A stretch of 64,000 bases of DNA from Owenia fusiformis (lineage: Eukaryota > Annelida > Polychaeta > Sabellida > Oweniidae). Below, one piece after another: positions 36,106 to 58,687 of this stretch. The translations under genes and the position numbers were made by a program. The stretch is taken from positions 15,025,915-15,089,914 of the forward strand of contig CAIIXF020000001.1 of assembly GCA_903813345.2 (NCBI GenBank). Reading direction: 5' to 3'. The notes under the pieces are model-generated. The model did not search any database, was not told the DNA's origin, and was given only the letters and a program-made list of their open reading frames with translations. The first letter of the stretch is position 1; every line of letters starts with the position of its first letter.

Positions 36106-37253
36106 TCATGGTTTATGGACCACTCGAACTAGTCGAACTGGAACATCACGTCTTACCCGTTCCTCTAAAAGTCTCTGACGCCCAGAAAACCGTTTGAATG
36201 GGTTAAAATTCTCTCCTAAGAGATTACGCTTCATGAGGCAAAGACCTTGTTTAAGGGCTGGAAGGTCCAAAATAAATATAATCAGGAAAAACAGCATTAC
36301 AAAACCTGATGACGTAAAACCCAAGGCCTTTGCTGACACTCTTTCATCAGGTTCGAACACGTCAAACAGTAATTTTTTGTGTTCTGTCACTTTGGCTGTC
36401 GTCTTTATTGCTACAATTGCCTGTCCTAATGTACCGGTTGATGTAAATGAAGCGTTTGTAGAATTTACATGTTGCGTTGTGGTCTCTGTTGATCCATTTA
36501 TTAAAATTGCTGTGAACTCTGATGTTGGGCTCTTTAGTGTTTGATTTGAGGATAGCGAGGAAGTAGGTTCACTTGTGGGTATTTTAGTAAATTCAGTTGT
36601 GCGTATTGTAGTAAACTGCGTTGTAAATACTGTAGTACGCTCAGTAGTGGGAATTGTAGTAGGCTCCGTTGTAGGCTCTGTTGTGGGTTCAGTTGTTGGG
36701 ACTGTGGTGGGTATTGTTGTAGGTTCCGTTGTGGGTATTGTAGTATGCTCCGTTGTGGGTTCAGTTGTGGGTGTTGTAGTAGGCTCCGTTGTGGGTTCAG
36801 TTGTGGGTGTTGTAGTAGGCTCCGTTGTGGGTTCAGTTGTGGGAATTGTAGTAGGCTCCGTTGTAGGTTCTGTTGTGGGTATTGTAGTAGGCTCCGTTGT
36901 GGGTTCAGTTGTGGGTGTTGTAGTAGGCTCCGTTGTGGCCACCACAGTTGTGGGAATTGTAGTAGGCTCCGTTGTAGGTTCTGTTGTGGGTGTTGTAGTA
37001 GGCTCCGTTGTAGGTTCTGTTGTGGGAATTGTAGTAGGCTCCGTTGTAGGTTCTGTTGTGGGTATTGTAGTAGGCTCCGTTGTAGGTTCTGTTGTGGGTA
37101 TTGTTGTAGGCTCCGTTGTGGGTTCAGTTGTGGGTATTGTAGTAGGCTCCGTTGTAGGTTCAGTTGTGGGTACTGTGGTGGGTATTGTTGTAGGTTCAGT
37201 TGTGGGTACAGTAGTAGGTTTTGTTGTTGGTATTGTTGTAGGCTCCTTAGTAA
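36106..37253 (-). CDS. Gene A exon 10: mucin-like Thr/Pro repeat, membrane helix, cytoplasmic tail
   Basis: Incoming phase 1 after acceptor TTGCAATTTCAG. About 240 residues of near-perfect TEPTT[I/T/V]PT-type repeats, a dense O-glycosylation substrate, are followed by a Ser/Thr/Asn-rich stem with N-x-S/T sites. Then come a hydrophobic helix (SSGFVMLFFLIIFILDLPAL) and a basic 48-residue tail ending VVHKP. The coding strand frame is fixed by the helix and by phase from exon 9. Long open frames on the other strand and in other frames are by-products of the repeat. Confidence 0.92.
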
Positions 37254-40200
37254 CTGAAATTGCAAATTATCTTTCAGATTTACTGAAGGATTAACAATGA
37301 GCCTTGGGTCTAATGTGAAATATTCGCTATTATTGTTGCAAAGTGTACATTCTTTAAAAACAATAATTGCACTCCTCTTTGTTATGGCTGAAGATTCTTT
37401 AAAATAAAATACATCATTCTATTGTGTTGTGTGGTTAACACCCCAGTCACATTTGTCGTACGGCGGCAGATCCATCAAAATCAGAGAATTTCTGCGGCGG
37501 GCGTAGGAAAACTACGGTCGCCTTGCGGTCTCCGTACGGCGTATGCAGATCTTTACAGGCCGCAGGGTAGGCGTAGGAAACAGGTTTTAGGCCAGGTTTT
37601 AATTCTTGTCGTATCTTTGCTGTGAACAAGTTCGCAAGACGTTTGACCCAATTTCCCCGAAGATCCAGCTCGGATTGAGCTTGCAATAGGCAGAAGGTTA
37701 TTAAATATCAGCGAGTATGATTAAAAGAAGAAAAAAGCTTTCTGTTGGTGTGTTGGTTTATTGTACAGAGTCCCTAGCTGCGAGAAGTGCTTCTCACAGC
37801 TAGGGACCAAAACGCCGTTAAAATTAGGGGCCCTTTATAACAGAATAATGATCAACAGGAAAGCATGTTTTGCTTTGAATGGAACAAGTGTGAAGAAAAA
37901 CGGTGCAGTATGAGACTCACAATCCTTGATTTTCAAACATCTGTTGGGTTTAAACTTCAAATTAACAGTTTTTTTTTGTATATAGTGGACCCCCATTCTT
38001 TGTTATTGCGGTATTTTCATGGTGGAGGTCAAACAGGTATAAATGGGCCTCACAAAATTCTATAATCTTCTGAATGTCAAGGAAATCATCTTCCTCTTCA
38101 TCGCCCGATTCATCAGGAATGACATCCTTGTTCTTCCTTTCCTTTAATACGCTTATATGTAATGGCATTTGCCAGAGTTGTCATAATATGTGACCGGGGT
38201 CTTGGGAAGACCCCAACACTTTTTATTTGATATTAAGGATTTAAGACCTGGGCTCAGTGCATTGTTTGCTGAATCATACCATGAACACGTGGTACTAACT
38301 CACCGGGGCGTATCGAAACCAAAACGCCCCGCAAAACCGTTAATTTAAATTTCAAATCTACCATGTCTTTGGAAAATCAATGATTGTGAGTCTTACACTA
38401 CACCTTTTTTCTCCAAACTTGTTCCATTAAAACCTTCACAGAAATACCTCTCAGTCGAGACATTGCTTTTGTTTACAAAGTCCCTCGTTTTAGTGGCGTT
38501 TTGGTCCCCAGATGTGAGAATTTGCAAATTCTCAGAGATTACAACCACAATCCTTGATATCTCGCCAGTTCTTCTATCACTCTCCCCCATATTCTGCGCA
38601 AGGACACCCATTACAACCCTCCATCGCTGCATCAACATGTTTACTACATGAAACGCAGAAATTCTACGCAACTGTTCGAAATTGACCAAAACGCCCCGTT
38701 GTCTTCCAAAACGCCCCACAGAGTCTTTGACTACAAACGTGTAGTTTCAAGGTGTATATATCCAACGGGGCGTTTTGGAAGAGAACGGGGCGTTTTGATC
38801 AATTTCGAACAGATGCGTAGGACTTTTGGAAATTGCTGCGTTTAATGTAATAAATATGTTGATGCAAGGGCGTTACAATACCCGGGAATTTATCGGTTCG
38901 TGCAGTACTTGTTTGTGATAGCGCCCTCTGTAGGTCACTGTGCTTAAGCCTACATTAATACGGGGTAGGATATCGGGAATTCGGTCAGTTTCCATCCGTC
39001 GATTTCGCTATGAATTGAAGCAAGTGTGACCACTTTATCCACTTAAACAATTTGATAATTGATTAAATCTTTAAACAAAATCGATAAACACGTTATACAC
39101 TTCCTATCTCCTTAGAAATTAGCATGTATTTATGGATTGTGTTTTCGAACAAGGCTCGACCCAAACCAATAGGGAAATCCTTATGCTAATTAGTATGACG
39201 TCATATTTTCCTGGGGAATCCTAGATTTCAAAGCCTCAGTCTGTTATTGTGTCAAATGTAAACGCTCTTTTGCAGACAGAAAATTGACAGATTAGCTTTT
39301 AACTTTCAGCTTTGATGTTTAAATATTCTGTATTTCTACCGGACTTCTTGCTGAATATCATATAATGTTATAACTTGATTTGGACCATTGCCTGATTGAT
39401 CATTCTGAAATTTTGATTGTGACCGTATGATTGATTGGCGAGAAAAATAATTCCTATTGTTTTCCAGCGAAGTCAAAATGTTACAGCATGAGTTATAATG
39501 TCGAGTTTGCATCATGTTAAATTCTGCTAGTGATTAGAAGTCCATGCACAAGCATACACATAACTTGAGAGACAAACACACCCAGGCTCCAGGCCGTGGA
39601 TGGAAATATAAAACTATTTAAGGCACAAACTTGTATTTAATAGGCCGATATGTAGTGTCTGCCATGTATTGAAGGTAAACAATCTGCATTATTAATGTTA
39701 CTTCTATCAATACATGGATTGTACAATGGAAAAGCAATGGCACAATCAAAAATGTGCATATCAATCGTGAATATCTCTCGGTTCAAAGCTTATTTCCAAC
39801 AGAATCGTGTCAAAATATGTGTCTGAGTAACAGTTATACATTATAAGATCGCAAACTCTTACCAATTATCAGCCGAATGGCTCATTTTCAACGAAATGTC
39901 CTTAAGACAACAGCCCTGGGTCGCGCCTGAGACCAAAAACTATTTCAAATAGCCCTCCCCTAATTATATTGGATAATCACATTTATGCGTGCGCGCGCAG
40001 CTCATCCACTGAACGAAACGCCACTTCCCGCTGAAATCACCGGGTATTGATCTTTCCCTTGGTTGATGCAGAGATGGAGGGTTCTAATGGGAGTCCTAGT
40101 GCAAAATATAGGGGAGAATAATAAAAGAACTGCGATATATCGAGGCTTTTGGTTGAAATCTCTGAAGATTTGCATCTTCTCACATCTGGGGACCAAAACG

Positions 40201-43200
40201 CCGCTAAAAAGCAATGTCTGAGTGAAAGGTATTTCTGTAAAGGTTTTAATGGAACAAGTTTGAAGAAAAACGGTGTACTGTGAGACTCGCAACCATATAA
40301 CTCCGAGTTATAATTTCTACGCCTTAATTCCCTGCGGCCTGTAAAAATCTGCAAACGCCGTACGGAGACCGCAAGGCGCCCGTAGTTTTCCTACGCTCGC
40401 CGCAGAAATTCACTGATTTAATTGATCTGCGGTCGACTCATTTCTGAAGTTATGGTTGCTATGGTAACCTCAATAACGTCATAGCGGGATAGGGCAATAT
40501 TTGTGAAGTTTAAAATTAGTTCTCTTTCGGATATAATATCAAACCCCGTGTAATCTTTATTTATGGAGGAAATAAAGAAAATACATATACACACGGTAGG
40601 GATTGTCATCACGTGACCTTCGCAGTTGATGGTGTCTGAACAAGATGTAAGATTTTCTCGATTAAGCAAGAAAAACGAATATTTTTCATATTTATACTTT
40701 GTTAAATGCTTCAAATCTCTCCCCACTTGTGCATATTATCTCAGTCTCTCAAATGAACCTAAATTTACTAACAGAGTACGCATATTTTTTGAGATATCAC
40801 TGTTTTTTGTTTCGAAAAATGATGGTGTCCGAACAACTTTAAAATTCTGTATGATGGTATCTGTACATATTTTTAAATACACTACTTGGATGGTAGTCCT
40901 CGTGTTTTCGTGTGTTATTTAAATATATATCCTTCTTTCCAATGTGTTGTAGCACTTGAACATGCTAATTTGGAAACTCTGTTTTCCAAATCCAAAGAGA
41001 GGGGCATGTTATTTTATTTATTTTTATTCCAAATGCTATTGTTTAATTTTGGATTAAACCAAATCAACCTAGAATCGTGATGTTTGCCTGTTATCACTGC
41101 TATCCATTGGTTGAATTTCCAACGCTGAACGATTTGCAAATCATGTGTGGCACAATCATCCATCAGAGGAATTTAGATACATTGTGTATTGTCGCCAGAA
41201 GCTGGGCGATTGAGTCATTTGATCAAACGTTATCTATTCCATATTACAAATTAAAGATTGAATACTTGAATAAAACAAAATAAAATGAGTTCCATCAATC
41301 GATTTAGACTGCCCAGGGATGGTATTATTCAGTAAAGCCTGCCACCCTTTGAGAGGCCAGAGAAGCTATGCAATATTGGTGATGTCATTGGTTGTAAGTA
41401 GAAATCTGACCAATCAAAATACAGGATTTCGTGTGTCATTGTCCTGATTAAAGTGCTATGCAAAATTATTGCACATTAGTAGGGTCTAGCTTCTGCACTG
41501 AACCTCATACCCGCGTACATGGTAGTAATGTAGCCTAAATATTGCAATATAGTCACACCTTAAAGACGACTTCCTGGAAGTCCACAGCAAGTGAAAAACA
41601 ATCTTAGTGAAGATTGCTTCTAGTGAACGAGCATTCAATAGATAAAGGATCCGTCATACTCAGTATATAAAAATGCCCCAAGGTCTCTCATAAGAGTCAT
41701 AACCATTATGACATATAATATGGAATTTAGTGAGGAGTTAATTATGGCATAGTGTTCAGTTGCATCCTAAGTGTTATTGAGGTCATAGTGACCTTGTAAA
41801 GGTCAAGTTGGTGCATATCTGAAAATTAAAGATTCTTGTGTACAAAATCATCATTTACAAAATTTAAAATGTGAAAATATGATTAAGAATGTTAAGAAAT
41901 TTCAAATGAGCTGCTTCACTTTTACGGTGCTTCCGCAGGCTTAAGCCACACTAATTTCATCACTAAATTGTACCCTTGGTAATAATGTTTATATTGAGGC
42001 ATAAATAAGAGTGGCTTAGGCCCGCGGAGGCAATGAATCATTCAAATATATAGAACAGGCATTGAATTTGCTAACTTTATTTAACCAAAAATGCATACGT
42101 TTCTTCAGGTTCAACGAAGTTATAGGTCTTTAAAGTCAAAATTGTTTTCCAAAAAAACTGTCCCATTAAAATAACATAGGAGGCGAAAAATGATTTTCAA
42201 AAATTACTTTGAAGCTCTGTAGCTTTAGTGTTCATCAAGTAAACCGAACACTTAGTGTACAAAAAAGTTAGACAATTCAATTTTCTATATAAAAATATTT
42301 TTTGCTAAATCTTTTACTGAATAGATATCCTGATTTCTGATTTGCCCCGAACCCGCCATTCCCTATTGGTTAACATGGGAATGACGATTTTCAAAAATTC
42401 ATCAAATTTACCATCAATTTTCGACCTATTGTAATTGAGGAAAAAAATTGAGAAAATTTGGAGGTATTGGAAGTAAAGTCAAATTACGTTTCCGTTAATA
42501 GTAAAAGTATTTTCACCGCAGGTTAAGTAAATAAAAATTCAAAAGTAAAGAGGCTTTAACACGTAGTTCAATGGGGAGCAAATGTTGCCAAACTTATGGA
42601 GGGGAGTGTACATTTTTTTTTTTTTGGCAGTCATCTTGGACATCCATATAAATAAATTATTCAATGATTTTGTTCAGACAAAATTAAAATCATTGACCTC
42701 ACAAATTAGAAATGATGTCCTAATTGCTCTATGTTTAGATCAAAAGTTACATATTCACTTCTGCAGCCATTTTGGCGGCCTTCTTGATGTTCAAATGAAG
42801 GAATTATTTGATGACTTAGTTATTCATATAATTGAAATTCTTATCCCATTAAACTTGAACATGGTCTCCAAATTTGACTGTTCTTAACTGTTCTATGAGC
42901 TTGAATCAATAGTTACATATTTGCTTTGGTACCAATTTGGTAGCCATCTTGGATTTCGATAAAAAGTAATTATTTGATAACTGAGATTTAGACATAAATG
43001 AAATCCTTGGCCCCTACTAAATATTCATGGTCTACAAAATCACTGTTCACTGTTCTTTGACGGCTTAAATCAATAGTTACATATCCATTTTGGTACCCAT
43101 TTTGGTGGCCATCTTTGATTTCTATATAAAGTAATTGTTTGATGACTTGGATTTAGACATAATGAAATCCTTGACCGTAAAAACGTAGACATGGTCTCCA

Positions 43201-46200
43201 AAGTCACTGTTCTCAACTGTTCTTCTGAGTTAAATCAATATTTACATATTTGTTTCGGCACCCATTTTGGTGGCCATCTTGGATTTCTCTAAAAAGCTAT
43301 TATTTGATGACTTCGATTTAGACATAAATGAAATCCTAGACCCCGAAAATGTATTAATGGGCTCCAAAATCAATGTTCTTAAGTGTTTTTTTAAGTTTAA
43401 ATCAGAAGTTACATTTTCGTTTTGGCACCAATTTTGGTGGCCATTTTGGATTTCTATGAAAAGCAATTATTTAATGAGTCAAAGATTTAGACATAAATAA
43501 AATCCTTGACCCTTAAAATATACACATGGGTTCCAAAATCACTGTTCTTGAGTGTTTTGAAGCCTAAATCAGAAGTTACATATTCGTTTTGGCACTCATT
43601 TTGTCGGCCATTTTGGAAATCTATGAAAAATAATTATTTGACAACTCAAAGCTTTAGACATAAATGAAATCCTTTACCCTTAAAATGTAGACATGGGCTA
43701 CAAATTCACTGTTCTTAAGTGTTTTCGAGTTTAAATCAATAGTTACAAATTCGTTTTGGCACCCATTTTGGCAGCCATCTCGGATTTCTATGAAAATCTA
43801 TTATTTGATGACTCTGATTTAGACATAAATGAGATCCTTGACCCCTAAAACCCATACATAGATCCTACAATCACAGTTTTTGTATCTCGGTATCGTTAGA
43901 TATACACAACCTACTTTTATATTGTAACTCACGCACCTAGCCATTTTGAAAAATGGGTGATAACACCTATTTAGCTACAACTGTTGCAATGCTATCGCAT
44001 ATTTTCTTACTCTAGAGGTTTTAACCGTCCCAAAAATCACCATGGTGATTATTCCCCTAACTTGATACCGATAACCTAAATTTTGGAGCGAAGCTGATGG
44101 CCTAAACAGCCCCCATAGACAAGCTTCCGAACCCCGTTTTATATTTTCCTTCCGCATTTTACCCCTCATATTCCTTCCTTTCTATTCCTTCTACCACCTC
44201 AATACGAATGAGTCCGTATTATCCTTTCAGACAGTTTTACGGACCCGGCCCCACTTATATATTTTCCCCTCTTCCCTCCTTCCATCCCATAGCCAATTAA
44301 CCCTCTCCTGACGTGAATATAAGAGCAAAATGTTGGCCTGGTGACGGATAAGTAAGAATGGTTTTAAGGGAAAAACTGCAAATTACCTATTCCCCGGGAC
44401 CTTTACCTTGAATTTATCAATGAAATATAATTTTTAGTAAGGATTATCACATTCATCTTGTTAAAATTTGGTGTAAAAATACTGAATAGAACTGGTATAT
44501 AAAAACAATGGTGCCAAAAGGAACCTATCGTCTTGAATGGTATTTAAGAAATATAGACCGAAAAGCAGGGGTTATATTGTCGAATACACCCCGCAGGACT
44601 AGGCACAAACGTTTTCTGTTCGAAAGCTTTTGTGCCTAGCCCTAAGGGGTGTATTCAACGATATCACCCCTGCTCTGAGGTCTATATTACGATTCGAACA
44701 TGAAAACTCACCAAAATGTTTCGAATATTCATCATGGTCCGCCATTACTACGACCCACCGTTATGACGTCACACATTACACGTACTACCAGGGGTATTGA
44801 TCGCGAATATATCCCGGTGAAACGTTGACTTTGTTTACAGTTTATAGAAGGCGTGAATACAGTCATGTTCGAATTCATAATAGGGCTCCATATGGAGCCT
44901 ATCGTCATGAAAGGGTTAATAGGTTTACAATATTACCCTTTTCACAGATGTATCGATAGGCAGTTGAACAACCGCGATCCTTCCAATATCCACCGCTTAA
45001 CACAACGCTTGCACAGGTGCCAGGCTCATTCGGGCCCATAGCAGACCAGCTGGAAGCGAATTAAAAGAATATCAAATTGTAGCGTTTCCACTTGTTTGAT
45101 TCCACTTCTTTAAAATGTAAGTTTATCTCACGAGCTAGGCTCTAATCATCAGGATTAATCTAAGTCTGTGTTGCGGCGCAAGTATATAATATGTTGCATA
45201 ATATTTGATAAGTTTTCCCCCTAGGTATCATGAAAAAGAACAATGAGCCAATGCGTTGCAAATTACATGCTCACACGATTTCATCAAAATCAGCCGCGTC
45301 TGCCCGTTGCTAGTGCACCGCAGGAGTTCGACTTCAATAAACAGCGGTATCTTTTAAAAGGATTATTTGAGTGTATGTGCGCTATTTTTGTTGAAAACAC
45401 ACGAGCATGTAATTTGCACTGCATGGCTTATTGCTCTTTTAGTGGTGCCTGGAGAGAAACCTCGTTAAAATATTACGCAATTCACTAGCACCGCGAGCAT
45501 ACAAAACTACAGTTTCAGAGTGATTAAGAGTACTTCAATACTTAGAGAAAGCAATGTTTCGAGATTAAAAGTCCTGGTTAAAAGTATCTTGAATTACTCA
45601 CTCTGAATAATATGACTGACCGGGTACCGGGTTGCCAATTGTCCCGTCCACCCAGTAGAAGTTCGAGAGGCTTGATCCCATGTAGAGTCCTATGAGATGG
45701 TCATAAAAACTACTCACGCTGAAAATATTAGTACCAGCACACCGGAATAGCCTGACAACGGTAAAGTCAGGTATACCGTTGTCACATATGGCGGACATAA
45801 TCGTCGCTTCAATTAGATTTTCATGAACTGTATGTTTAATAGAGCACCTAGACTAAATTCCTTTGGAACAACAATCAAGCAAAGTGTCTTAATATTCATT
45901 ACACAGTTACATATGTAATAATGTTTTACCATCGAAATGAAGTCTTTAATTTAAGGGATCAAAATGAGATACGGGACAACGGCCACTGTAATTATTACCA
46001 TATGCCATTGTCTTTTTAAATTACTCAAATTCAGATTCTGTTTTGTTGTCATTGACGATATCGGAGACGCTATATTGTGGCAATTCACGACCCAATAGTA
46101 TAGTTTCCATATAGCTTTTGAAATCTCGCTAAATCTCGTTTTTCGTGAGATTTTAAGAGACTTGCATATTAGACCTCTAATGACTTACATTACCTTCTTT

Positions 46201-49200
46201 TAAATGGTATATTTGAATTCAGTGGAATGTTTTCTCCTAAAATAGCTTTGATTTACACAGTTATGTAATTTGAATAATTTTCTATGACAATTTAAAAAAA
46301 GTTGGGCCAAATGTCCATAGATGCAATGCTAAAATTCTTTAAAACCGTGGATTATTTGTATGTCAATCTACATTAGCATGTTTAATCACAACGTGTTCAT
46401 AAACAGGGTCATCATGTGGTATATCATTCAAGTTTTATACAGATTCAACAAACACACTTTGATAAATCATGAAATTAAGCCACTTTTCCAAGATTTTAGC
46501 ATGTAAGTGAATGGAGCTCTAACCAGAGTTAAAAGCTGAATAAAAGATGGCAGCACGAGATTTCATTGATTTTTCTGCTAATTAGAAACTATCCTATTTG
46601 ATAGAAATTGAGATTTCATATGAAACATCATCACAATAGCTTAATACGTGCACAGGATTAGTGACGATAAAATCCCATGAAATGAAGTGATTGACGGTTA
46701 TGTCCGTCATTTGTGACAACGGTATCTGACTTTACAGTTGTCAGGCTATTCCGGTGTGACCAGGGGATATTTCGGTTAGTATTTGAAGAATAATTGCAGG
46801 GTATTTGCAGATACATTAATATCACGTCAATTAAACATAGGTTCGCTAATAGCTATATCTATATCTATGTTAAAGAATGTGGGATCGATCGTGGACAAAA
46901 AGCTGACATCATTATTTGTGATCTCTTCTGAACCTGCTTTGAACAGAATAGCAAGATAATAAAATATAAAACTAAACAAGCAAAGTTATAATTCACCAAT
47001 ATAAAGCAAATTATGGGGTTATGAATAGATCATGATCTACAAATGTGATTTCTAGAGTAACACGAAATAACATAAAGGCACACGAAGCACTTATATGTTA
47101 GCTCTTTGGTAAAATATAATTTTCTGGATCATTCTGAACAATAGAACAACACATTTACAATGCAAACTCCGAATAACACAATACAATGACGTAAAAATAT
47201 GAACTTAAATCAAGACGCAGAAGACCCAAAGGTGATCCAATTCTCACCTTGTGATGGCAACCATTTGTTTTAGAAGCAAGTATCTCTCTCAACAATAGAA
47301 ATATCAATCTTATGACCCAAACAATTACTGCAGGTGAAACATCTGAATTATATGATTACTTAATACGAAATGTCATAATGATTTCTATAATCAGAATATA
47401 TAAAACATGTGTATCAGAAGTCATGATATATGTTACTTTAAAAACACTATTATAAAGACAGTAGTTTTACAATAAGGTTTTACTCACTGTCCATCTATAA
47501 AGGCCATCTCTGCCGAGTCTCCTATACTGACTAAGTTGGCATCTTGATTAACACATATAGCTTGGGCGGAGTCTCTCTTTTGAAGATCATTGCTGACGAC
47601 CAAGTATTGGTGCCCAGTATTTGGATCAGTCACCCAACCATTGCATATCTTCATGGAAAACGTACCTTTTAAAATAAAAGGATGGTGTTCTATAATACTA
47701 AATGTGAGAAGAAATAATCTTGATTTACGTCATTAAATATTCAAAAGGTCTATGTTTTAGACAGTCATTTTTAACCATGAGTACTTTCTGGGCATAAATA
47801 AAGTGTTTTCTTTATCAAAACAATATGTTTTCTTTCAAGTGAAGTACCCATAATGATAAAAATATCAATCGAACAATTCAAAAAATTATGGATAGGGACC
47901 CCCTGTCAACATTTTTTTCAAAATGTTGAAAAAATTTTCAAAAGAGGATCTTTTTCTGTTTTTTATTGCATGAAAAGATTATTCAACAAGGGGTCTAAAA
48001 CTTCTTCAAAAGTAGAATGGTATTGAAAGTCTAGTTTTGAAGATATCCATTTTTTATGACCAAAATTATGCTTAAAACAATGGATAGCACGAGTTTTCCC
48101 TATGAAAAAATAACATGGGAAATATGGTTTTTAACTTTAACGCATTTCAATACGCATCGGAAATATGCTTTTCAGAAATTGTTAATGTAGTGTTGAAGAA
48201 ACTTTTGATATGTTTAAATTGAGAAAAATAAGATCGTCTTTTTGGAAAATGAGCCTAACATCAGAGATTTTGATTAATAGTTTACTTTCATGGGGACTCT
48301 ACTTGAAAGAAAATATAATTGCTTTAATAAAAACCGCTGTATTGATGGCCAGAAAGTACCCATGTTGAAAGATATGACCATCTAAAATCACTAGCCATAC
48401 TGCACACGGACCTTTAGTTAAGGAAAGCATCAAAAGTTCGATGTCGGATCAAAAACTATATATTTAGCAGTTATGTCCCTATCATTGAATATATGCCTGA
48501 GGTCTGTCACCAATATAGCCCGAGCTTGCGAGGGTTATATTACGACAGACCGAAGGCATATATTCAATGATACGGACATAACTGTTGTATTACATACTTT
48601 TATATCATGGCTACGTTATATCAATGACGCCACGTGTCTGTGTGCGAGTGAAATTAGGAATAAATGAAACATGACGTCCCGATGACGTCATAAGATTGTC
48701 ATGGTAAAAGGTTTGGCGGCTATACAGGAATATATAGCCGACCTTCAGCTCCATTGACTTCAATACAAATGCTTCGCTGGGTATGTAATACATATATATA
48801 TATATAGTTAGGGGGGAGGGGGTTCAAAGCCATTTCAGTTTGCTATCCGACAAATCTCAAAATTCCATTTTTTTTAGGATAGGAATTAACAAAAACTAGA
48901 AAGTTTTCAAATTCTCAAACCGGAAGTCAGCGATCAACTTTCATGGTAATTAGTTTGCTTTTTTTTGGGGGGGGGGTCAGATTTATTTAGTTTTCTGTTC
49001 CGACATCGAACGTTTGATGCCTCCCCTTAAAAGGGATATCATATTTGAAATGTAAAATTACATCTAGAAATGTGTTTTTGAAAAGTGTTTATCAACTTTG
49101 GAAATTTAATCTTCTTTGAAAATGTAACTTCTAGGTCGGGGAGATTCACCATAGACCCCATTTTACAAAGTCACAAAAGGTGAAATATCTTTTCTTGTGT

Positions 49201-52200
49201 TGAGCAGATAATATTTTCTTTAACTGGACATATTTTCGTTTTTATAATTATCAGACACATAAGGGTTATATGAAAATGTTTATATACCTGCCATGTTAAT
49301 TAACCCAAACCAGTCACCTGGTGGTGAAACTGGTAACTACCTACTCGCATCTGGGTAATTAATTCCCTGGAATGTCTTTATGGTAGTGCATAAAATATAA
49401 ACACGCAAGGTGTAAATTTCGCATAACAATCTATGCATTTGAAGTGACTACCAAGAATAGAAAATAGTGGAAAGTACGTTTCGAAACTTGTTACAAATTG
49501 ACAACAAATCCCTAGTTTTTCAATAAAGTTAGGTTAACCAAAGAGTTTTTCAAAATCTTTGGTTAACGCCACATTGTGGAAAAGATGGTGGCTGTCAATT
49601 TATAATTAAACGCTGCAGCGTTGTACTTGGAACATCACGAACGTATTACAAGGTAATGCCGGAAAACTACAAAACGTTTTTACTGAATAGAATTTCACCT
49701 CCTGTTTTCCGAAAGAAAATACTCTTGACGTGTACAGACCTGGGAACAATTCGAGAAATACGGGAAAATGTCTCATATAAGTGTTAGTCCCCGCGTTATC
49801 AATAAAACTAACCATGTGTTTCATGTTTTTTGTGTTTTAAAGTACTCTTCATGCGCATTTTAGTGATACTAATTTTTCTTGAAAAATTTGATCTACCATT
49901 TTTAGGATTAAATATATCCCAACATCGCAAAATTTGTTGTAAGACGTAACACTTTACCCCTGCACTGCTAGTTTAAATAGACTAGATGCGAGAAGAAATA
50001 ATCTTTACTTACGTCATTAAATATTCAAAATTCAGTCAAAGTGATATCATATTTGAAATCTACATGTAAAAGTACATCTAGAAATATGGTTTCGAAAATT
50101 GTTTATCAACTTTGAAAATTTAATTTTTTTTGAAAAAGTGACTTCTAGTTCGGGTTGATTCCCCATAGACCCCATTTTACAAAATCACAAAAAGTGAAAT
50201 AGTTTTTCTTGTATTAGACAGATAACATTTTCATTTACTGGAGAAATCTTAATTTGCATAACTATTAGATACATAATAAGGGTGATATGAAAATCGAACC
50301 ACTAAAACAGATTTAATTTAAGTTAAAGGGAACTTTCTACTATACCCGCCATGCTATCTGACCCGAACGAGCCACCTAGTGGTGCAACTGGTAACTACCT
50401 ACTCGCATGTGCGTTATTGGGATACCTTTTTTATTTAGAACACATTTAAATTTTGTGCGAAAATGCGCAGCGCGCACATAAAATGTTACGAGTGACGCCG
50501 TTTTTAACATTTTGATCAAGTAGAACGCTCTAAAATCTCTTATAGAATAAAATATATACTTGAGATTTTAGAATCATATAGCATCATTATGAAGATTTTG
50601 GTAGAAACAGTAACATTAATGTTCGTTCCGCATACTATTCCAGTATTTACATGTTAATAACGCCAATACGTCAAAAATTGAAACATACCCCAGTATTGAA
50701 CTTTGGTTCTATATTATTGCGTTTTCGGGTACATTTTATCAATTATTATAAAAATTTGGAAATCTGAAATACTTACATAAAATAATTAATATGTTAGTTA
50801 TCTTCCAATCAAATGCGACAAACGCAGATTTTTCCATGTTCAGTATTGTCATTAAACAAATGTTTATCTATGTACATTCAGTCAAATCCTTAATGAAACA
50901 AAAATCACACATCGAACCGATTTTAAAGTGAGATGCGCAGTAACTAATAGTTACTGTCGTTTATACAATCATGTAGTTCATGGTATCACCCTTTTGTACT
51001 CGTATATGATCAATCCATTGTTTATACTTACCTTACGGAACCGATAATCAAGTCACGATCAAAATAATTTTAGTCATATCCTCAATACAAGGCGTTCAAT
51101 AAGTTTTGATAAAAAGGCTGTAATTTTATATTTCTGATTATCTTTTCAGCTGCGTAATGTTTTGAGGTAGTGTTACAGTTTCAAAAGTCTACATGTTTGA
51201 GAAAGTGCAGGTATGGTGGAGATTCAAGTATACATCAAAAATTGACAAATGTCATATGGAGGGGTATGTGATGTTATCTTGCAAGAGCATGAGTATGACA
51301 ATTTCATTGTCTATGCCACATCTGCCACCCCTTATTCCAATAGCACCTTTGCCCCGTGCACTGACTTTTGCAATGTTTTAACGCTTGGTCCTGAGCTGAT
51401 TTTGCCCCACTTTGTGAAAGCAATTTTTATTCGGTCAACCATGACGCCATGTCAATAAATGACGTAACATTGCAGAGAGGAGAAATTTGGCTTTCTGGAA
51501 CATTGAATGAAAAGGATGCAGTCATCACTGCTAGTTTCTTCCAAGAGTCTGTGGTTCTGTGCACTGACTTTTACGATGTTTATAACTTGGTCCCAAGCTA
51601 ATTTTGGCCAACTTTACAAAAGGAATGATTATTCGCCCAAACATGACCCAATGCCAATGAATGAAATACCATTGGAAGGAGGTGACGCATGGCTTTATGG
51701 TACACCAGATTAAAGCAATGATGCTTTCACCAGTTTTATGCTATTCAGAGATAACAGTCTGTTTCAATTTTTTTAATACGCTCTGTATATTACGGATAAG
51801 CAAGGATATACTTACGAGGGCCAATCATATTATTTGAATAATGGTCAATAACGTTTTTGAAGTGTTCTAAACGTGCAACATTATAAGTCATTGAATGATT
51901 TGAAGTGCAATACAGGATATATTCTGCTCGAGAAATTCTGCATTGGAACGAGACGAAGTCGAGTGTCAATACAGAATATCGAGGCAGAATGTATCCTGTA
52001 TTGCACTTCAAATCATTCAATAACGTTTTTATCGTGTGATCTTATGTCAGTACATTTTACTTGGGAGATAATCCCTAAAAAATATTCTGTATTGCTACTG
52101 AGATTGTCCCCTCAGTACCAATATTTTCTGTATTACTACGGAGAAGAATGGGGACAATCTCAGTAGCAATACAGATTGATACAGTACAAGAACTGACCAA

Positions 52201-55200
52201 TCAAAGGGCTTCATATACGGTAATATCGCATAATGGGACATTGAACCAGGAATTAAACAAGGTTATTCAAACTAGCTCATCAATATTCAAGCCAATCAAT
52301 AGGGAAGTTCAGTTATTTGAAATAAAACGTGAACCTGAACGTCGATACTCATATGTCATATTGATTTATTTGCGATGTTGAATTCTTGACTAAATTGCCA
52401 TATTTACTTAACCCTATCAATGCTACAAAAAGCAAAATATCTCATTTTGCTGCTAATTCAAGAGTGAAGACTTTTCATGGTAAATATGGCAATTGAGTCA
52501 ATATTATATTTGATCAGAGACAAATAAAACATATCTCTGATTGAATGCAGGTTCATACCATCCCAAGTAAATTGTGCACCACACCATACAAAACGTATAT
52601 GTCTACAAGACAGAATTATGTAAAGAAATTGTTAAGTTTTCCTTTCAATAGAAAATACTTATCACCCTTTATAAAGTATAACAATTTTAATTTATCAAGG
52701 TTTATATCAAGTACATGCATAAAAAGTCTGTTTAAACAATAAAAATTCAACAAGAATTGCTTGCTGCCCGTAGCCAGCTTTTACCAGGAGGGGGAGCTTT
52801 TTCCTAGGGGGGAGCTTTTTTACAATTTTGGCTAAAAAGCTAAAAAATTCTCAGAATGGTGAAAAACTGCATGATTTTGAAAGAATTTCTGGCCAGGGGG
52901 GGGAGCTTCCGCTCCCTCAGCTCCCTAAACTGGCTACGGGCCTGAATTGTACGTACAATTTTCTTTTCAACTTCTCCATTGATTTATTAGATAAATTGAA
53001 ACAAACATTTGAATTTTTAGGTAGGCTTGGTACAAGTCCCCGAGTTGGCAACACACGCCTTGAGGTTATTATCCCATTCCAATCGTTCTCCAGTGATGGG
53101 ATCTTTTACGGGGCAGTCCATGACCCGCATTCCAGTGTCTGAACAGGATATGTACTGGTTACAGGATTCACATGATTGGTACAAGCCGCTGGGCATGTCA
53201 TCGCAGGAACGAATACCCCCACCGGTGGGGCAACAGGAATTTTCATTACATGAACGCGTCTGTAAACATAACATATATCATCAATACGGTCAATGACATT
53301 TCTGATGGTGACATTATAATAAAATCGTACACCTTTCGATCTTCACAGTTCCAAGCCTTTTGTAAGTGTCATTATAACAGAAAATATAGATTTACCCAAT
53401 GTAGAACAAGACAAACGTTTTTTTGGATCTGTGATCCAATAAACCTCAAGTACGTATTTACTACTAGTAATCCAAAAAATCAGTCTGTAGGTCTGATCTA
53501 TTCGCCAATTCTGATAGGGATAACATTTTTGGATGACTGCTGAAGCGCGTATTTATCTTGACCAGCCTATACGCATGATCATCTGATACGTCCTACACAT
53601 GTACATGTACATTGAATTATTAAAGTAACATATGCATATGTGCGGTAGGTGCGGTTAATCTACAAACAATCGATAATTAATCGGATATTGATGAACAAGC
53701 AATAACACCAAATCAGTATGTGAAGGAAAAAAGAAAATGCATTAGCTGACATCTTTTGAAATAAGTGAGATCTTTGTGTTCATTTTATCCAAGTGAAGAC
53801 ACTCAATTAATGTACTGTATTAAAGCAATGTTTATGCTAGAACTAGCTAGACGATGACAAAGTGTGATACACCAATTGCGGTCGTCACCACACTCGCTCG
53901 TGCAGATACAGACTCAATCATGATTCAAAATCCAGCCCTAAAGAGGGATCCGAGTGTCTCATGTTTTAGAACATTTGTTCAAATCAAGAGTGCTTGTTGA
54001 CACCTGAGGACTGCAAAATGTATGCAAACACATAGATTGGATAGATACAATGCAGTGTTTTAATGCTAGAAGGACATTGTTTTGAGTATCTTTATTGAAC
54101 TTTATCTCAAATTACTAGTAAATATAGGATTTCACAGTTGGATTTAGTTTTCAGATTTTCAATTTAAATTAAAGCGTCTAATGAGTCCTGGACCAAGTGC
54201 CTCTACCATGGGGTAGTAAAAGTGTGATTATATAATTTTCTGTCAATCAATCGTCCCTGCGGTGTATAGGCATATAAATTATATAAATTGTGTGAAAATG
54301 TCAGGTGATTTCCTTTACTTAAGAAAAAAAGACAGCATTTTTATCAGAACTTATGGATCGGCCTATGTACGAGGGGTGATCCAAAAGTTTTGGACGCCCC
54401 GCTCTAACTTTGCTATTTTCTAATATAATTACATGAAACTTTCAGATAATAAAGATCAACATCTTAACAACTTTGTGTATAAGTTTCAAAAGTTTTGTTA
54501 TCTCATTTTAAACAAATATGCGTCTGTCACATACATAGAATTTGATAGTTTTAATGTACGTATTAGTCTGAAGCACCCACGGGTAGTTAGTCAACAATCG
54601 TCATCAAATGATTATTAAAATACTAGCAATACAGCTTTTGTATCTTATTTACCTCAATCGAAGGTCCTTCACAGTCTTTGCCCCCGTTTGCTGGTTCTGG
54701 ATTATTGCATAACCGTGTTCGGTTTTGTGTTCCTCCTCCGCACGTTTTGGAACATTCTCCAAAATCTGACCAAGGTCCATAACCACCGTCCACAGGGCAT
54801 GGACTGGTACTACATTCTCTCGTTTCCGATGTTGGACCCTCACAGGGTTTACCTCCATTTTCAGGTCCAATGCAGACTCGTGTGCGGGTCTGTATTCCCC
54901 CACCGCATGATACGGAACACACGGAATAGTTAGACCAAGATCCAAACCTTCCATCAACAGGACAAAGTGGGTTGTCGGGACAATTTCTAACTTCTGTTGA
55001 TGATCCTGAGCAATCGGATCCACCATTTCTGGGTGGAGGGTTGTTGCAGTAGCGGTTTCTGGATTGGGTCCCCTCACCACACGATGTAGTACATGCCGAG
55101 AAGTTACCATAGGAACCCCAAACTCCATTAACTACAAGCAGTAGGGTCAATGATGATAAATGAAACAAACTGTCACAATGATCTTATACACCAATCTCGA

Positions 55201-58200
55201 TAAGACTCTCGAATGAACGAGTAGGCCTAGTACGTAGCCCGGTACGTAGTAGATTACATTACGTAAAAGTGTTTTAACCTAGTATGATATGTAGTCACAT
55301 CTGATGTGCAAAGAAGGATAGATCAAAAGGTCTTATAAAAACACAAAAGAACGTAATCAATCATGAGGAAAAAGAAAACAGATCCCCAATATCCCAAAGT
55401 ATGATCCAATGCACAAAGAGACAATGTCTAACAATCCAGCCTCTCCCAAAAGCCTACACATTCATTCCAGGATTCATTATCACAATCCAAATCAACAAAA
55501 CTATGGAACTTTTGTTGAGTACTCGTTGGAGAACATTATTAATAAATTAAAAAAGTGCATTCAGTCTCAATTGATATTTGACAGACAAAATCCAATATAA
55601 TCAACATATTAAACATAATGCCAAAACAATATTATTATTAGCAACGTATAAGCTCGTGTTCTTGATTAGGCTAGCATTCGCAAATTCAACTGCCGGCTGT
55701 CGGCTGACGACTCGACTGCCATCCCATGGCCAACTCATTTAAACATGAATATGAATAGTAGCAGCCTATGGCTTCGGGAATAGTACTTTTTAGAGGATAT
55801 TCCATCGGGGAAATAATTTACACTATTGCCCTCAATGGCAGTCACTATTTGTATACTATTCATATTTAAATGAGTTGGCCACAAAATAGAAATCAAATCG
55901 CAGTCAAATCGTCAGCCATCAGCCAGCAGTTGAATTCGCGAATGCTAGGTCTTTTCTTTATCCTGGATCGAGGGGATAGAATATAATACACTCACCTGTA
56001 AATGAAAATGATCTCTGCTCACTTTCATTCGGCCTGAACCAGCAGTCACACGCATTTTCATTGGTAAGACCACGTGGCCGATCGGTGATAGTAACCTGGA
56101 GAGAAGGAGGTGGTCGTGCAGTTGTAATAGGTAAGTTACGAGGAATGTTAATATACAGGGTGTCTCAAAAAAATGTACCCAAAAGTATATCAAGAGCACA
56201 GATAAACCAATCAATATTTTCAGACATTTTTTGCATGGTCATGTAGCCAAAACATGAAAGTTTTCTCCCCAATACACCATTTTTATTTCAGTCTTGTCTT
56301 TTTGATGCTTTAACCCTTGACCTTTTACACCACATAATCGATGTACCCTCTTATTTCGATGACAGCCTGTATCCTTACTGCTACATTGTTCATCACATTT
56401 GATAATAATTCTGGTAGAATGTTTTAGATTTCTCTTTGGATGTTGCCCTTAAGTTGTTCTAGGTCTTTTTGCTTGGAATGAACATTAAAACACTTCTTCA
56501 AATAGCCACAGAGAAAGATGTTTGAGGATGACGATGGCAGAACAAACACAGATAATCAGGGCAATTATCGTCAAATGATTCAGGAGTTACCTTCCAGAGT
56601 TAGACAGGCTAGCCTGGAGACCAAATCATATCCAAATGAAAACACAGTGGTCTCAAATTGGTACACAAACAAAAGCTACATTGGAATCCCAAGCAATGTA
56701 GTTTCTTGAACCTCTGACCTCTCTGTATAGGGGGGCTATAAGACATCGTGAGGGCCTCCCTATTCACCATATTTGACGGCCCATACTTTTTTCTCTGAGG
56801 CTATTTGAAGGACCATTTTTATGCTAAACCCAAGCTAAGAGACCTAGAACAACTTAAGACCAGCATCCGAACAGAAATCAAAACATTCCACCAGATATAT
56901 CAAATGTGATGAACAATGTAGTAGTAAGGATGCAGACTGTCATCGAAATACGAGGTTACATTGAATATGTGGTGTAAAAGGTTATGGGTTAAAGTATCAA
57001 AACGGCAAAACTGAATTAAAAACTGTGTATAGGGGAAAAAACTTTCATCTTTTATCTACAAGACCATGCAAAAAATGTCTGAAAATATTGATTGGTTTCT
57101 CTATGGTGTTGATATACTTTTGGGTACATTTTTTTGAGACACCCTATATGTACTCATTTTTGTGGTGACATATTGTTATGGTTTCTTACGTTTTCGTGGA
57201 CGATGTTCGGCATTCGGTGTCTGTTACAAATGGCAGGTGGAGACATTTTGCATGTTAAAGCCTTGCATCGATTTGAATTGAATATGTTATACATGTATGT
57301 CTTCGCTAATTACAAATAATAACGTCAATTTACTTTTGCGAGTTTCCAATCTGGACCAAAACCACAATCGTTCGGATTCATGTATATATCGGCTTGATGT
57401 ATCGCTCCATAATCTTCATAGATGAACGTATCGGCCTTGCTGCAAATACAGGAATCATTATTTAGACGCAGATGTTCCATATGTATTATCTGAGACCATC
57501 TATGTTAGTCTCAGGTATTATGTATGAAGCAAAACTGATCCTGAAAAGTGATACAGGAACGAACATTTCCGGGTCTTTTCACAATTGATCTGAGTGGTAC
57601 ATGGTCAACTCGGACCCTAGTTAACTCGGACACTAGTCAACTCGGACCCTAGTCAACTCAGACACTAGTCAACTCGGACCCTAGTTAACTTGGACCCTAG
57701 TGAACTCGGACCCTAGTTAACTCGGACCCTAGATTACAACTCTAGATTATAAGTTCCCAGTTGTGGGTTGAACCATGATATTTGGCAAATCAATGTACCT
57801 TTGGATAAGCTTTAAAATGATATACATGTATGACACATTCTATGGAGACATTGGTAATGGTATATGTCTGCCTGAGGGCATACTTTCGCGACACCCTGTA
57901 ATACCTGTATATCCAATTTTCACACGATTCGAAAAATCATGTCAATGTACACATTACAGCGTGTAATGCCTTGGTCACATTTGCTCCGATTTTCACTACG
58001 GCGCCCGGCCGATTGAGTATTTTGTTCAAAATTGAATACAATATTGAACAAAACACTCAATCGGCCGGGCGCCGGTCGATGGATCGGAGCAAATGTGACC
58101 AAGGCATTAATGTCGATATAATGCTCCATATGAATTATCAATTCTTACTCGTTTATTTGAAAATTTCCATCTAATCGGCGCCTGTAAAGTGTACCAAGAT

Positions 58201-58687
58201 GACCATAAAGAGAGATATAAATTTTACAATCTGTACCGGCAAAGAATTCGTCAGCTGTGTGGATATTGACATGGTAGACGTATGACGTCACTCCACCTGT
58301 GAAAGTAAAGGATAAAAGAAATATGTTTCAATATGTAATTAGTTCATTTTGAAAATGTATAATGTAAGCGTTAAGAGCAAAATATTGGAGGTGAATTTTT
58401 TTGGAAAAATCAAATTGAGAATATTTTTTTCTTGTCTTAAAATAGTACATGTAGTTATAATATCAAATATCTACAAAAATCTGCACAGATTTCCAAAAGA
58501 AAATGTACGATTAGTTTGGAATCGTGTTACGGTAAAAATACATATAATATTGTAGATTGTACAATTATTCTTGAGTTATTGTAATATCATGGTATTGTCA
58601 CTATTTTTAAAGTGATACAAAGGGTTACCAATGCAACTTACCCACAGCAATTGCTAATAATACCAGAATTGCATTTATAAACGCCAT
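36106..58687 (-). CDS. Gene A: membrane-anchored PLAT-TSP1x3-ChtBD2-C-type lectin mucin-like protein, complete
   Basis: Ten exons (58687-58642, 58296-58149, 57439-57334, 56095-55996, 55131-54653, 53259-53034, 47665-47488, 45718-45602, 45049-44937, 37253-36106) sum to 2661 nt, 886 residues plus stop, with all phases consistent. Domains by residue: signal peptide 1-16; PLAT about 18-130; TSP1 repeats about 137-303; chitin-binding type 2 about 305-368; C-type lectin about 370-504; Thr/Pro mucin stalk about 506-750; membrane helix about 815-838; basic cytoplasmic tail of 48. It is thus a predicted type I surface protein with two potential glycan-binding domains held off the membrane by a stalk. 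The lectin domain has the canonical cysteines but no EPN or QPD calcium motif. The tail has no recognised signalling motif. I know no named protein with this architecture. An innate recognition or adhesion role is inference. Confidence 0.88.
37457..40436. repeat. 3-kb foldback complex
   Basis: 37457-37600 (GTACGGCGGC...CTTGCGGTCTCCGTACGGCG) is inverted at 40312-40436. 38390-38640 (GTTCCATTAAAACCTT...TTTTGGTCCCCAGATGTGAG) is inverted at about 40050-40270. A partial third copy lies at 37755-37930. It occupies the 3' part of gene A intron 9, starting about 200 bp from exon 10. Confidence 0.78.
38648..38842. repeat. Inverted repeat with AAAACGCCCCGTT arms
   Basis: TGTTCGAAATTGACCAAAAC...CTTCCAAAACGCCCC is inverted after a spacer of about 50 bp. 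Nested in the 37.5-40.4 kb complex; GACCAAAACGCC recurs nearby. Confidence 0.8.
42600..43890. repeat. Tandem array, about 165-bp unit, 8 units
   Basis: Units contain TTTTGG(T/C)GGCCATCTTGGATTT, then GATTTAGACATAAATGAAATC, then CACTGTTCTTAA. Anchors recur about every 165-168 bp. Divergent, non-coding, in gene A intron 9. Confidence 0.88.
44551..44890. repeat. Hairpin element, copy type II
   Basis: The palindrome at 44551-44688 is followed by TATTACGATTCGAACATG and TTATGACGTCACACATTAC, a perfect CRE. Flanking sequences CCTATCGTCTTGAA (about 44524) and CCTATCGTCATGAA (about 44898) form a near-perfect direct repeat. The right edge lies within 50 bp of gene A exon 9. Confidence 0.82.
44937..45049 (-). 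CDS. Gene A exon 9: end of C-type lectin domain
   Basis: Phase 2 to 1. WSAMGPNEPGTCASVVLSGG and RGCSTAYRYICEK give the last three lectin cysteines. The sugar-site triplet is not EPN or QPD, and the usual WND is replaced by YWKD. Acceptor CTTCCAG, donor AAGG|GTAATA. Confidence 0.87.
45602..45718 (-). CDS. Gene A exon 8: middle of C-type lectin domain
   Basis: Phase 2 to 2. HLIGLYMGSSLSNFYWVDGT corresponds to the W/L-IGL...W-x-DG core of lectin domains. Its acceptor lies about 20 bp from the arm of a foldback repeat. Confidence 0.88.
45740..46763. repeat. Foldback element abutting gene A exon 8
   Basis: CACACCGGAATAGCCTGACAAC and following sequence to about 45830 are inverted at 46690-46763. 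The left end is about 20 bp from the exon 8 acceptor. Gene A intron 7. Confidence 0.78.
47488..47665 (-). CDS. Gene A exon 7: first part of C-type lectin domain
   Basis: Phase 1 to 2. KICNGWVTDPNTGHQYLVVS and SAQAICVNQDANLVSIGDSA match the N-terminal C-type lectin signature (C-x-x-GW, then A-x-x-C-x-x-x-x-A-x-L-V-S-I). Donor CA|GTGAGT. Confidence 0.9.
47762..48381. repeat. Foldback element, about 100-bp arms
   Basis: GTACTTTCTGGGCATAAATA...TTTTCTTTCAAGT pairs with the inverse ending AGAAAGTACCCATG. It lies in gene A intron 6, about 100 bp from exon 7. Confidence 0.7.
48468..48800. repeat. Hairpin element, copy type I
   Basis: The palindrome at 48468-48584 has about 40-bp arms (CAGTTATGTCC-TATCATTGA...ATGCCTGAGGTCTGTC). 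Downstream are GACGCCACGTGTCTGTGTG and a perfect CRE TGACGTCA at 48683-48690. Gene A intron 6. Confidence 0.8.
49030..49370. repeat. Direct duplication, left copy
   Basis: ATATCATATTTGAAATGTA...CATAGACCCCATTTTACAAA...AACTGGTAACTACCTACTCGC recurs at 50040-50420 with roughly 80% similarity by eye. Gene A intron 6. Confidence 0.82.
50040..50420. repeat. Direct duplication, right copy
   Basis: Copy of 49030-49370, about 1 kb apart. Non-coding. Confidence 0.82.
51310..51700. repeat. Two-unit tandem repeat, about 215 bp
   Basis: GTGCACTGACTTTTGCAATG...CTTGGTCC...ATTATTCGCCCAA-like segments occur twice, at about 51355 and 51558. No gene recognised. Confidence 0.7.
51891..52022. repeat. Hairpin element
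   Basis: ATTGAATGATTTGAAGTGCAA with its inverse at 51997-52022; the loop contains GAACGAGACGAAGTCGAGTG. Part of a run of repeats in gene A intron 6. Confidence 0.8.
52760..52944. mobile_element. Small TIR element, CAGGCCCGTAG family, copy 2
   Basis: Right end intact (GGCTACGGGCCTG), left end altered by a few bases. 5-bp duplication AATTG (52755-52759, 52945-52949). The interior shares GGTGAAAAACTGCATGATTT with copy 1. It lies in gene A intron 6. Confidence 0.82.
53034..53259 (-). CDS. Gene A exon 6: end of TSP1-3 and chitin-binding type-2 domain
   Basis: It starts TRSCNENSCCP, completing the third TSP1 after ...GPSIE of exon 5. A peritrophin-A-like domain follows (CDDMPSGLYQSCESCNQYIS, then CPVKDPITGERLEWDNNLKA) with the usual Cys spacing and aromatic positions. 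The donor splits the codon of the final Cys. Confidence 0.9.
54372..54400. mobile_element. Solitary mariner-type terminal sequence
   Basis: TACGAGGGGTGATCCAAAAG resembles a mariner terminal repeat preceded by TA, but no matching inverse end was found nearby. Gene A intron 5. Confidence 0.4.
54653..55131 (-). CDS. Gene A exon 5: three TSP1 repeats (third incomplete)
   Basis: 479 nt, phase 1 to 0. Three thrombospondin type 1 repeats in tandem: WGSYGNFSACTTSCGEGTQ, FGSWSNYSVCSVSCGGGIQ, YGPWSDFGECSKTCGGGTQ, each with R-x-R or R-x-C strands. The third repeat's last cysteines are in exon 6. Confidence 0.95.
55671..55948. repeat. Foldback element, about 95-bp arms
   Basis: CTAGCATTCGCAAATTCAAC...GGCCAACTCATTTAAA pairs with its inverse. 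It is compact at 278 bp and lies in gene A intron 4, about 50 bp from exon 4. Confidence 0.88.
55996..56095 (-). CDS. Gene A exon 4: end of PLAT domain
   Basis: Phase 0 to 1, acceptor TTCTCTCCAG. VTITDRPRGLTNENACDCWF supplies the last PLAT strands and the terminal C-x-x-W-F/L pattern. Too short to be prominent as an ORF, but all phases fit. Confidence 0.8.
56156..57146. mobile_element. Foldback mariner-derived element, family 2, copy 2
   Basis: Flanked by TA (56154-56155, 57147-57148). Ends CAGGGTGTCTCAAAAAAATG. Each arm, read inward to end, encodes a decayed transposase C-terminus (LEQLK-x-N/S-I-R, then SNVMNNV-x-VR-x-Q-x-VIE). It lies within gene A intron 3. Confidence 0.85.
57160..57262. 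repeat. Dispersed repeat R1 copy
   Basis: GTGGTGACATATTGTTATGG...GTTACAAATGGCAGGTGG, then AGACATTTTGCATGTTAAAG. Immediately right of a family-2 mariner element, in gene A intron 3. Confidence 0.65.
57334..57439 (-). CDS. Gene A exon 3: second part of PLAT domain
   Basis: Phase 2 to 0. KADTFIYEDYGAIHQADIYM and GFGPDWKLAKV match the F-x-V/I...lG-x-l...P-x-W-x-L-x-x-V half of PLAT domains. Confidence 0.86.
57606..57732. repeat. 16-bp tandem repeat, 8 units
   Basis: Unit AACTCGGACCCTAGTT with C/A and C/T variants. Gene A intron 2. Confidence 0.93.
57965..58107. repeat. Near-perfect hairpin element, about 60-bp arms
   Basis: AATGCCTTGGTCACATTTGC...GGCGC...CCGGCCGATTGAGT pairs with its inverse across ATTGAATACAATATTGAA. 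It lies in gene A intron 2, 40 bp from exon 2, and is GC-rich relative to surroundings. Confidence 0.92.
58149..58296 (-). CDS. Gene A exon 2: first half of PLAT domain
   Basis: Encodes YVYHVNIHTADEFFAGTDCK and IYISLYGHLGTLYRRRLDG, matching the PLAT/LH2 start (hydrophobic strand, T-A/G-D, AGTD, V/I-Y-I-x-LYG-x-x-G). Donor CGA|GTAAGA gives phase 2. Confidence 0.86.
58642..58687 (-). CDS. Gene A exon 1: signal peptide
   Basis: ATG followed by MAFINAILVLLAIAVG, a compact signal peptide, then donor G|GTAAGT. One leftover base joins GT of exon 2 to make Gly. Confidence 0.85.

Follow-up and report, generated by a model that had tools for sequence, protein, structure and literature searches.

A proposed ten-exon receptor of Owenia fusiformis is most likely two neighbouring genes, one of them a PLAT-TSP1-chitin-binding family member

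Do ten exons that follow one another on the minus strand of an annelid contig encode a single membrane receptor, or the products of more than one gene? The question is raised by positions 58687-36106 of a 64,000-nucleotide stretch of Owenia fusiformis DNA (assembly GCA_903813345.2, contig CAIIXF020000001.1, positions 15,025,915 to 15,089,914), hereafter called the window. An initial annotation had joined these exons into one gene for a membrane receptor with a PLAT domain, three TSP1 domains, a chitin-binding domain (ChtBD2), a C-type lectin domain (CTLD), a mucin-like stalk and a transmembrane (TM) segment, a combination that it described as unfamiliar. We find that the proposed receptor is most likely two neighbouring minus-strand genes read as one: gene A (58687-53017), with the PLAT, TSP1 and chitin-binding domains, and gene B (47665-36106), which would be a separate gene for a C-type lectin with a mucin-like stalk and a TM segment.

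Where gene A ends

Minus-strand translation and splice-site placement recovered the proposed exons at the same positions, with GT/AG borders. Joined through a GT at 53033, the ten exons sum to 2661 bases, which corresponds to 887 codons, the last of them being the only stop. Because 887 codons is also the figure of the initial annotation, the rebuilt model is the one proposed there, and its borders and codon sum are reproduced exactly. Its domains are real. The Pfam PLAT profile (PF01477), whose failure had been named as a possible refutation, matches residues 23-129 with 36.7 bits (cut-off 23). TSP_1 (PF00090) finds the three expected stretches in gene A (114.8 bits, cut-off 21.6), Lectin_C (PF00059) reaches 53.5 bits (cut-off 22.6) on a copy scored with a shortened stalk, and a Thr/Ser/Pro-rich stalk and a TM-like segment are present by composition and hydropathy. 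CBM_14 (PF01607) matches all four related chitin-binding exons, with 24.9 bits for the exon of the window taken alone (cut-off 22.1) but 18.5 bits when the whole protein is scored. A single gene of 887 codons, in contrast, is not supported. The features on which this conclusion depends are listed below; donors were scored with an approximate textbook donor matrix.

58642..58687, minus strand: gene A exon 1, ATG and signal peptide MAFINAILVLLAIAVG (hydropathy), ends in phase 1; donor 9.0
58149..58296, minus strand: gene A exon 2, first part of PLAT (Pfam) with loop EFFAGTD; acceptor 11.7, donor 6.1
57334..57439, minus strand: gene A exon 3, middle part of PLAT (Pfam); acceptor 9.5, donor 3.6
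55996..56095, minus strand: gene A exon 4, last part of PLAT (Pfam) with CDCW motif, ends in phase 1; acceptor 14.6, donor 13.2
54653..55131, minus strand: gene A exon 5, TSP1-1, TSP1-2 and most of TSP1-3 (Pfam TSP_1 in three stretches); acceptor 6.2, donor 7.7
53017..53259, minus strand: gene A exon 6, end of TSP1-3, chitin-binding domain (CBM_14 in the exon alone; three related exons) and stop TAA at 53019-53017; acceptor 5.7
53032..53033, minus strand: GT that bypasses this stop in the ten-exon model, lacking at the corresponding position of two of the three related exons; donor -0.7, judged not to be a splice site
52983..52988, minus strand: AATAAA, a poly(A)-type signal, past the stop of gene A

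Within exon 6 a single frame covers the end of TSP1-3 and the chitin-binding domain and reaches the TAA as the fifth codon past the last cysteine. AATAAA follows at 52988, 28 bases beyond the stop. To splice exon 6 to exon 7 and so lose this in-frame TAA, the ten-exon model needs the donor CTT/GTACCA at 53033, which scores -0.7. The eight remaining donors score 3.6-13.2, with the five of gene A spanning that range and the three of the lectin part at 6.8, 6.7 and 4.5.

The last exon of gene A recurs at three loci of the assembly, C2:10.324 Mb, C2:33.038 Mb and contig C315, which are 51%, 48% and 62% identical to the exon of the window. These are the leading hits among the 11 matches of a genome search with this exon (E values 3e-23 to 6e-19); the next best has an E value of 9e-4. 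The T and P encoded beyond the disputed donor are invariant in all four exons, and the three related exons all run on to a stop: 10 residues separate it from the last cysteine at C2:10.324 and 6 in C315 (4 in the window), while the exon at C2:33.038 has a 63-residue tail whose first part is acidic. Two of the three have TGC in place of the donor GT, and no donor scoring above 2 was found in any of them between the last codons and the stop. An intron would not be expected to keep codons that relatives retain past the donor, and we therefore place the end of gene A at 53017.

One membrane receptor of 887 codons, with the order PLAT-TSP1x3-ChtBD2-CTLD-mucin-TM, is in our judgement extremely improbable. 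The frame does close at exactly 887 codons, the join retains the last chitin-binding cysteine, and the lectin part has no signal exon that we could find (see below). Against this stand the poor donor, the in-frame TAA with its AATAAA, and the related last exons, which read through the donor position and then stop. Read as two genes, the locus gives a gene A with a coding length of 1122 bases (373 amino acids and the stop) and the order signal peptide, PLAT in exons 2-4, three TSP1 domains and one peritrophin-type chitin-binding domain. Hydropathy reveals no second hydrophobic stretch after the signal peptide (the highest 17-residue mean after residue 30 is 0.65), so the predicted product should be secreted and not a membrane receptor. 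Taken by itself, PLAT-TSP1x3-ChtBD2 appears to make up a whole secreted protein that has no TM segment; the lectin, mucin and TM exons lie behind its stop. Of the unfamiliar domain combination a reduced version is left, PLAT-TSP1-ChtBD2. All three TSP1 domains of gene A contain CxxS/TCG, which we take to be the O-fucose motif.

Related loci in the genome

Family loci were collected by genome searches with gene A (the best 110 of 670 candidates were scored), with its last exon and with its PLAT domain, the last of which gave 31 matches at E values up to 10; 16 stretches were fetched. PLAT followed by TSP1 on one strand occurs in the window and at six other loci: C2:33.03, C5:12.80-12.81, C1:6.128-6.131, C1:6.137-6.146, C2:5.246 and C8:28.07 Mb. 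By these matches gene A is a member of a gene family in this animal. The genome also gives three matches above cut-off to the haemoglobin linker family PF16915, which is annelid-specific and thus fits an annelid source. Near four further PLAT pieces (C5:12.93, C5:13.10, C5:13.13 and C258) no TSP1 was found within the fetched stretch, and two of these pieces may belong to one gene.

Intron phases, compared over the placed exons with the window included, are for the most part shared. PLAT exon 2 has a phase 1 acceptor in 7 of 9 cases and a phase 2 donor in 6 of 9. For PLAT exon 3 the acceptor is in phase 2 in nine of ten and the donor in phase 0 in all ten. The donor of PLAT exon 4 is in phase 1 throughout (6/6), as is the acceptor of the first TSP1 exon in 6/7, and the chitin-binding exon begins in phase 0 at all four places. 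The misses are exons without a site above threshold in the phase concerned.

Three loci merit separate description. At C2:10.31-10.325 Mb the same TSP1-ChtBD2 tail, here with 11 TSP1 stretches, follows two C-type lectin domains; the joins are in phase 1, and the fetched stretch has no PLAT match. The copy at C2:33.03 has eight TSP1 stretches in a single exon and one more in the preceding exon. At C5:12.80 the copy is interrupted by a 500-base gap, at the same residue at which contig C315 starts in the alignment, and the two may be one gene with the architecture found in the window; PLAT exon 3 of the C5:12.80 copy reads in two frames, which means either a broken gene or a mistake in the assembly. 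With PLAT and lectin heads found on the same tail in a single genome, these loci offer a clear case in which to study domain shuffling at phase-1 introns.

Some further observations concern PLAT sequences and the introns of gene A. The Pfam PLAT search of the genome, which does not list the PLAT of the window itself, a domain divided among three exons, places many matches in clusters at C1:58.02-58.07 and C6:29.07-29.10 Mb, perhaps multi-PLAT genes. Intron 3 of gene A contains a long palindrome (56144-57158) that looks like a mobile element, with 261-base arms that are 88% complementary and identical 23-base terminal repeats, and a related copy is present in another fetched stretch (L008). A tandem array with a period of 16 bases occupies 57604-57732.

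The lectin gene and the rest of the window

Gene B comprises the last four exons of the ten-exon model:

47488..47665, minus strand: first exon found, first part of the C-type lectin domain (Lectin_C), starts in phase 1, lacks a signal peptide; acceptor 5.4, donor 6.8
45602..45718, minus strand: middle part of the lectin domain (Lectin_C); acceptor 4.2, donor 6.7
44937..45049, minus strand: last part of the lectin domain (Lectin_C); acceptor 7.9, donor 4.5 at 44936
36106..37253, minus strand: last exon, with mucin-like Thr/Pro stalk, TM-like segment, basic tail and stop (hydropathy, composition, tandem repeats); acceptor 1.9

The stalk spans 314 residues, 62% of which are T, S or P. With an acceptor of 1.9, the last exon (exon 10 of the model) is assigned to the lectin exons by phase alone. 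EPN is the canonical sugar-binding motif of C-type lectins. The gene B lectin reads GPN, neither EPN nor QPD, and because GPN replaces EPN, ordinary mannose-type binding is unlikely on sequence grounds. The lectin domain of the initial annotation is there, and ordinary sugar binding by it is doubtful.

A search of the genome with the gene B lectin gave three matches at E values up to 0.001, all within the window; in the Lectin_C genome search the best 150 of 565 candidates were scored. The stalk and TM segment gave eight matches including the window, and the other seven (E values 3.8e-8 to 8.8e-4, 25-43% identity) may reflect chance similarity of Thr/Ser-rich sequence.

The 5' end of gene B is missing from the model. 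Scanning the 5.3 kb between the two genes by donor score and hydropathy, we found no candidate that resembles a signal peptide with a good donor behind it. The scan counted 3 ATGs in 47.7-53.0 kb, against 1, 7, 1, 1, 1 and 1 in six stretches of equal length, and 4 with a looser donor limit. This leaves room for exons shared with gene A. Either a 5' exon of gene B may have been missed, or exon 1, or exons 1-4, may be common to both genes as an alternative form. With shared exons, the signal peptide, alone or with PLAT, would be spliced either to TSP1-ChtBD2, giving a secreted protein, or to lectin-mucin-TM, giving a membrane-bound one. The phase-1 ends of exons 1 and 4 are compatible with the phase-1 start of the first lectin exon, and the lack of a convincing signal exon between the two parts fits as well. 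We nevertheless regard shared exons as unlikely. Phase-1 borders are common in extracellular modules, which makes the phase match weak; no form of this sort is known; and a short first exon would be easily missed in an interval of which about 1.8 of 5.3 kb matches dispersed repeats in other fetched stretches.

Repeats and other open frames of the window are recorded here. Positions 49972-50419 are about 81% identical, and 49035-49363 are 73-77% identical, to copies of a dispersed repeat in three fetched stretches (L002, L006 and L009). A tandem array with a period of 167 (or 330) bases lies at 42733-43851. On the minus strand, open frames within 1038-33092 match VWA (40.7 bits), EGF (22.7 bits) and, weakly and under its cut-off, Sushi (18 bits), pointing to at least one other multidomain extracellular gene downstream of gene B. 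At 18400-19139 a short repeated unit gives rise to open frames that overlap one another in every frame of the plus strand; this is better read as a tandem repeat than as a gene.

A possible matrix protein and its relation to known systems

We hypothesize that the locus holds two genes and that gene A encodes an extracellular matrix family protein with a tail held on chitin and a head that binds lipid or a partner protein, a reading to which we assign a probability of about 0.6. The protein would be secreted by an epithelium, and its chitin-binding domain would fix it in a chitin-containing matrix such as that of the tube, the cuticle, the chaetae or the gut lining, with the TSP1 repeats as a possible adhesive spacer. 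The PLAT head, aromatic where 5-lipoxygenase (5-LOX) has its membrane-inserting pair, may bind lipid or a partner protein, and the whole molecule could then bridge the cell surface or a lipid phase to chitin.

This proposal draws on the PLAT loop, on the chitin-binding exon and on the domain make-up of an annelid tube proteome (see below). Profile searches with the PLAT domain match 11R-LOX (E value 1.6e-13), 5-LOX (7.9e-11) and polycystin-1 (6.9e-7), as well as AOS-LOX. Two positions directly precede the AGT-type motif in PLAT exon 2, and each of the ten pieces has F, W or Y at one or both of them: the pair is FF in the window and WW, WR, WW, WY, FY, MW, NY, NF and MW at the other loci. These positions align to E-H of crystallised 5-LOX; the stable form used for crystals carries Trp13Glu/Phe14His (PMC13014066). 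The pair suggests insertion of the PLAT loop into a membrane or binding of lipid. The chitin-binding exons match the CBM14 structure 4z4a (E value 4.2e-6).

Besides the missing signal exon of gene B, several observations weigh against this proposal. The chitin-binding exon has no match at four of the six other PLAT-TSP1 loci (both on C1, C2:5.246 and C8), and chitin anchoring is therefore not general in the PLAT-TSP1 family. Scored within the whole protein, the chitin-binding domain falls to 18.5 bits, under the CBM_14 cut-off. AlphaFold, given the chitin-binding exon as a single sequence, returned a poor pLDDT of 54.6. Coral lipoxygenases in the same PLAT alignments have no F, W or Y at the pair positions, and the loop argument is one of alignment. 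The proposal as a whole, two genes and matrix role alike, is drawn from genomic sequence.

The differing heads on a TSP1-ChtBD2 tail could also be read as microbe-recognition or immune proteins. By analogy, PLAT or two C-type lectin heads on the same tail, connected by phase-1 joins and present in several gene copies, resemble VCBPs, whose recognition heads are coupled to a chitin-binding domain and which bind chitin of the gut (PMC4757023). Lectin heads are found at one locus only, however. PLAT is not known to act in microbe recognition, and we consider an immune role unlikely. A broader version, to which we likewise give a low probability, would see an expanded secreted set with interchangeable PLAT or two-lectin heads on the TSP1-chitin-binding tail, exchanged at phase-1 introns: a chitin-anchored repertoire for lipid or glycan recognition not described before, with lectin-mucin-TM perhaps as a membrane-bound form of the gene in the window. 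The matrix protein remains our preferred interpretation. If its PLAT binds lipid, proteins of this kind would connect chitin with cell surfaces or lipid layers and so contribute to the building of tube, cuticle or gut lining. The correction also matters in itself: a gene model otherwise bound to enter as a new receptor class is set right, and a smaller, better supported finding remains.

Both predicted proteins can be set beside known systems. Gene B resembles mannose-receptor-type lectins in its Lectin_C domain, with the IgY receptor, the PLA2 receptor and mannose receptors as best PDB matches, and differs from them in having one lectin domain on a Thr/Pro stalk and GPN where they have EPN. 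Gene A shares with VCBPs a predicted secreted form and a head domain joined to a chitin-binding domain (PMC4757023). The heads of VCBPs are Ig V domains, whereas here they are PLAT or C-type lectin domains with TSP1 in between; a Pfam scan found no Ig domain in gene A, which sets it apart from the VCBPs.

The tail domains ChtBD2 and TSP1 are shared with annelid tube matrix proteins. The tube proteome of the deep-sea annelid Paraescarpia echinospica is enriched in LamG, VWA, ChtBD2 and TSP1, and PLAT, present in gene A, does not appear in the examined text of that source (PMC8476170). Among the open-licence papers listed for this subject we noticed none that describes PLAT together with TSP1 and a chitin-binding domain; the consulted portion of PMC4890752 names PLAT only in a PKD1-like protein, and the main text of PMC12549020 does not contain PLAT as a whole word.

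By Pfam and profile matches, the PLAT of gene A is like that of animal lipoxygenases (5-LOX, coral 11R-LOX and AOS-LOX) and polycystin-1, and it shares with 5-LOX an aromatic pair at the insertion loop. Unlike these proteins, the product of gene A would be secreted, with TSP1 and chitin-binding domains replacing the enzyme or channel, and it has extra cysteines in the loop region. In this family PLAT, a domain familiar above all from lipoxygenases and polycystins, is combined with TSP1 and, at some loci, with a chitin-binding domain. PLAT-TSP1-ChtBD2 appears to be a new combination of ordinary parts within the multidomain secreted matrix proteins.

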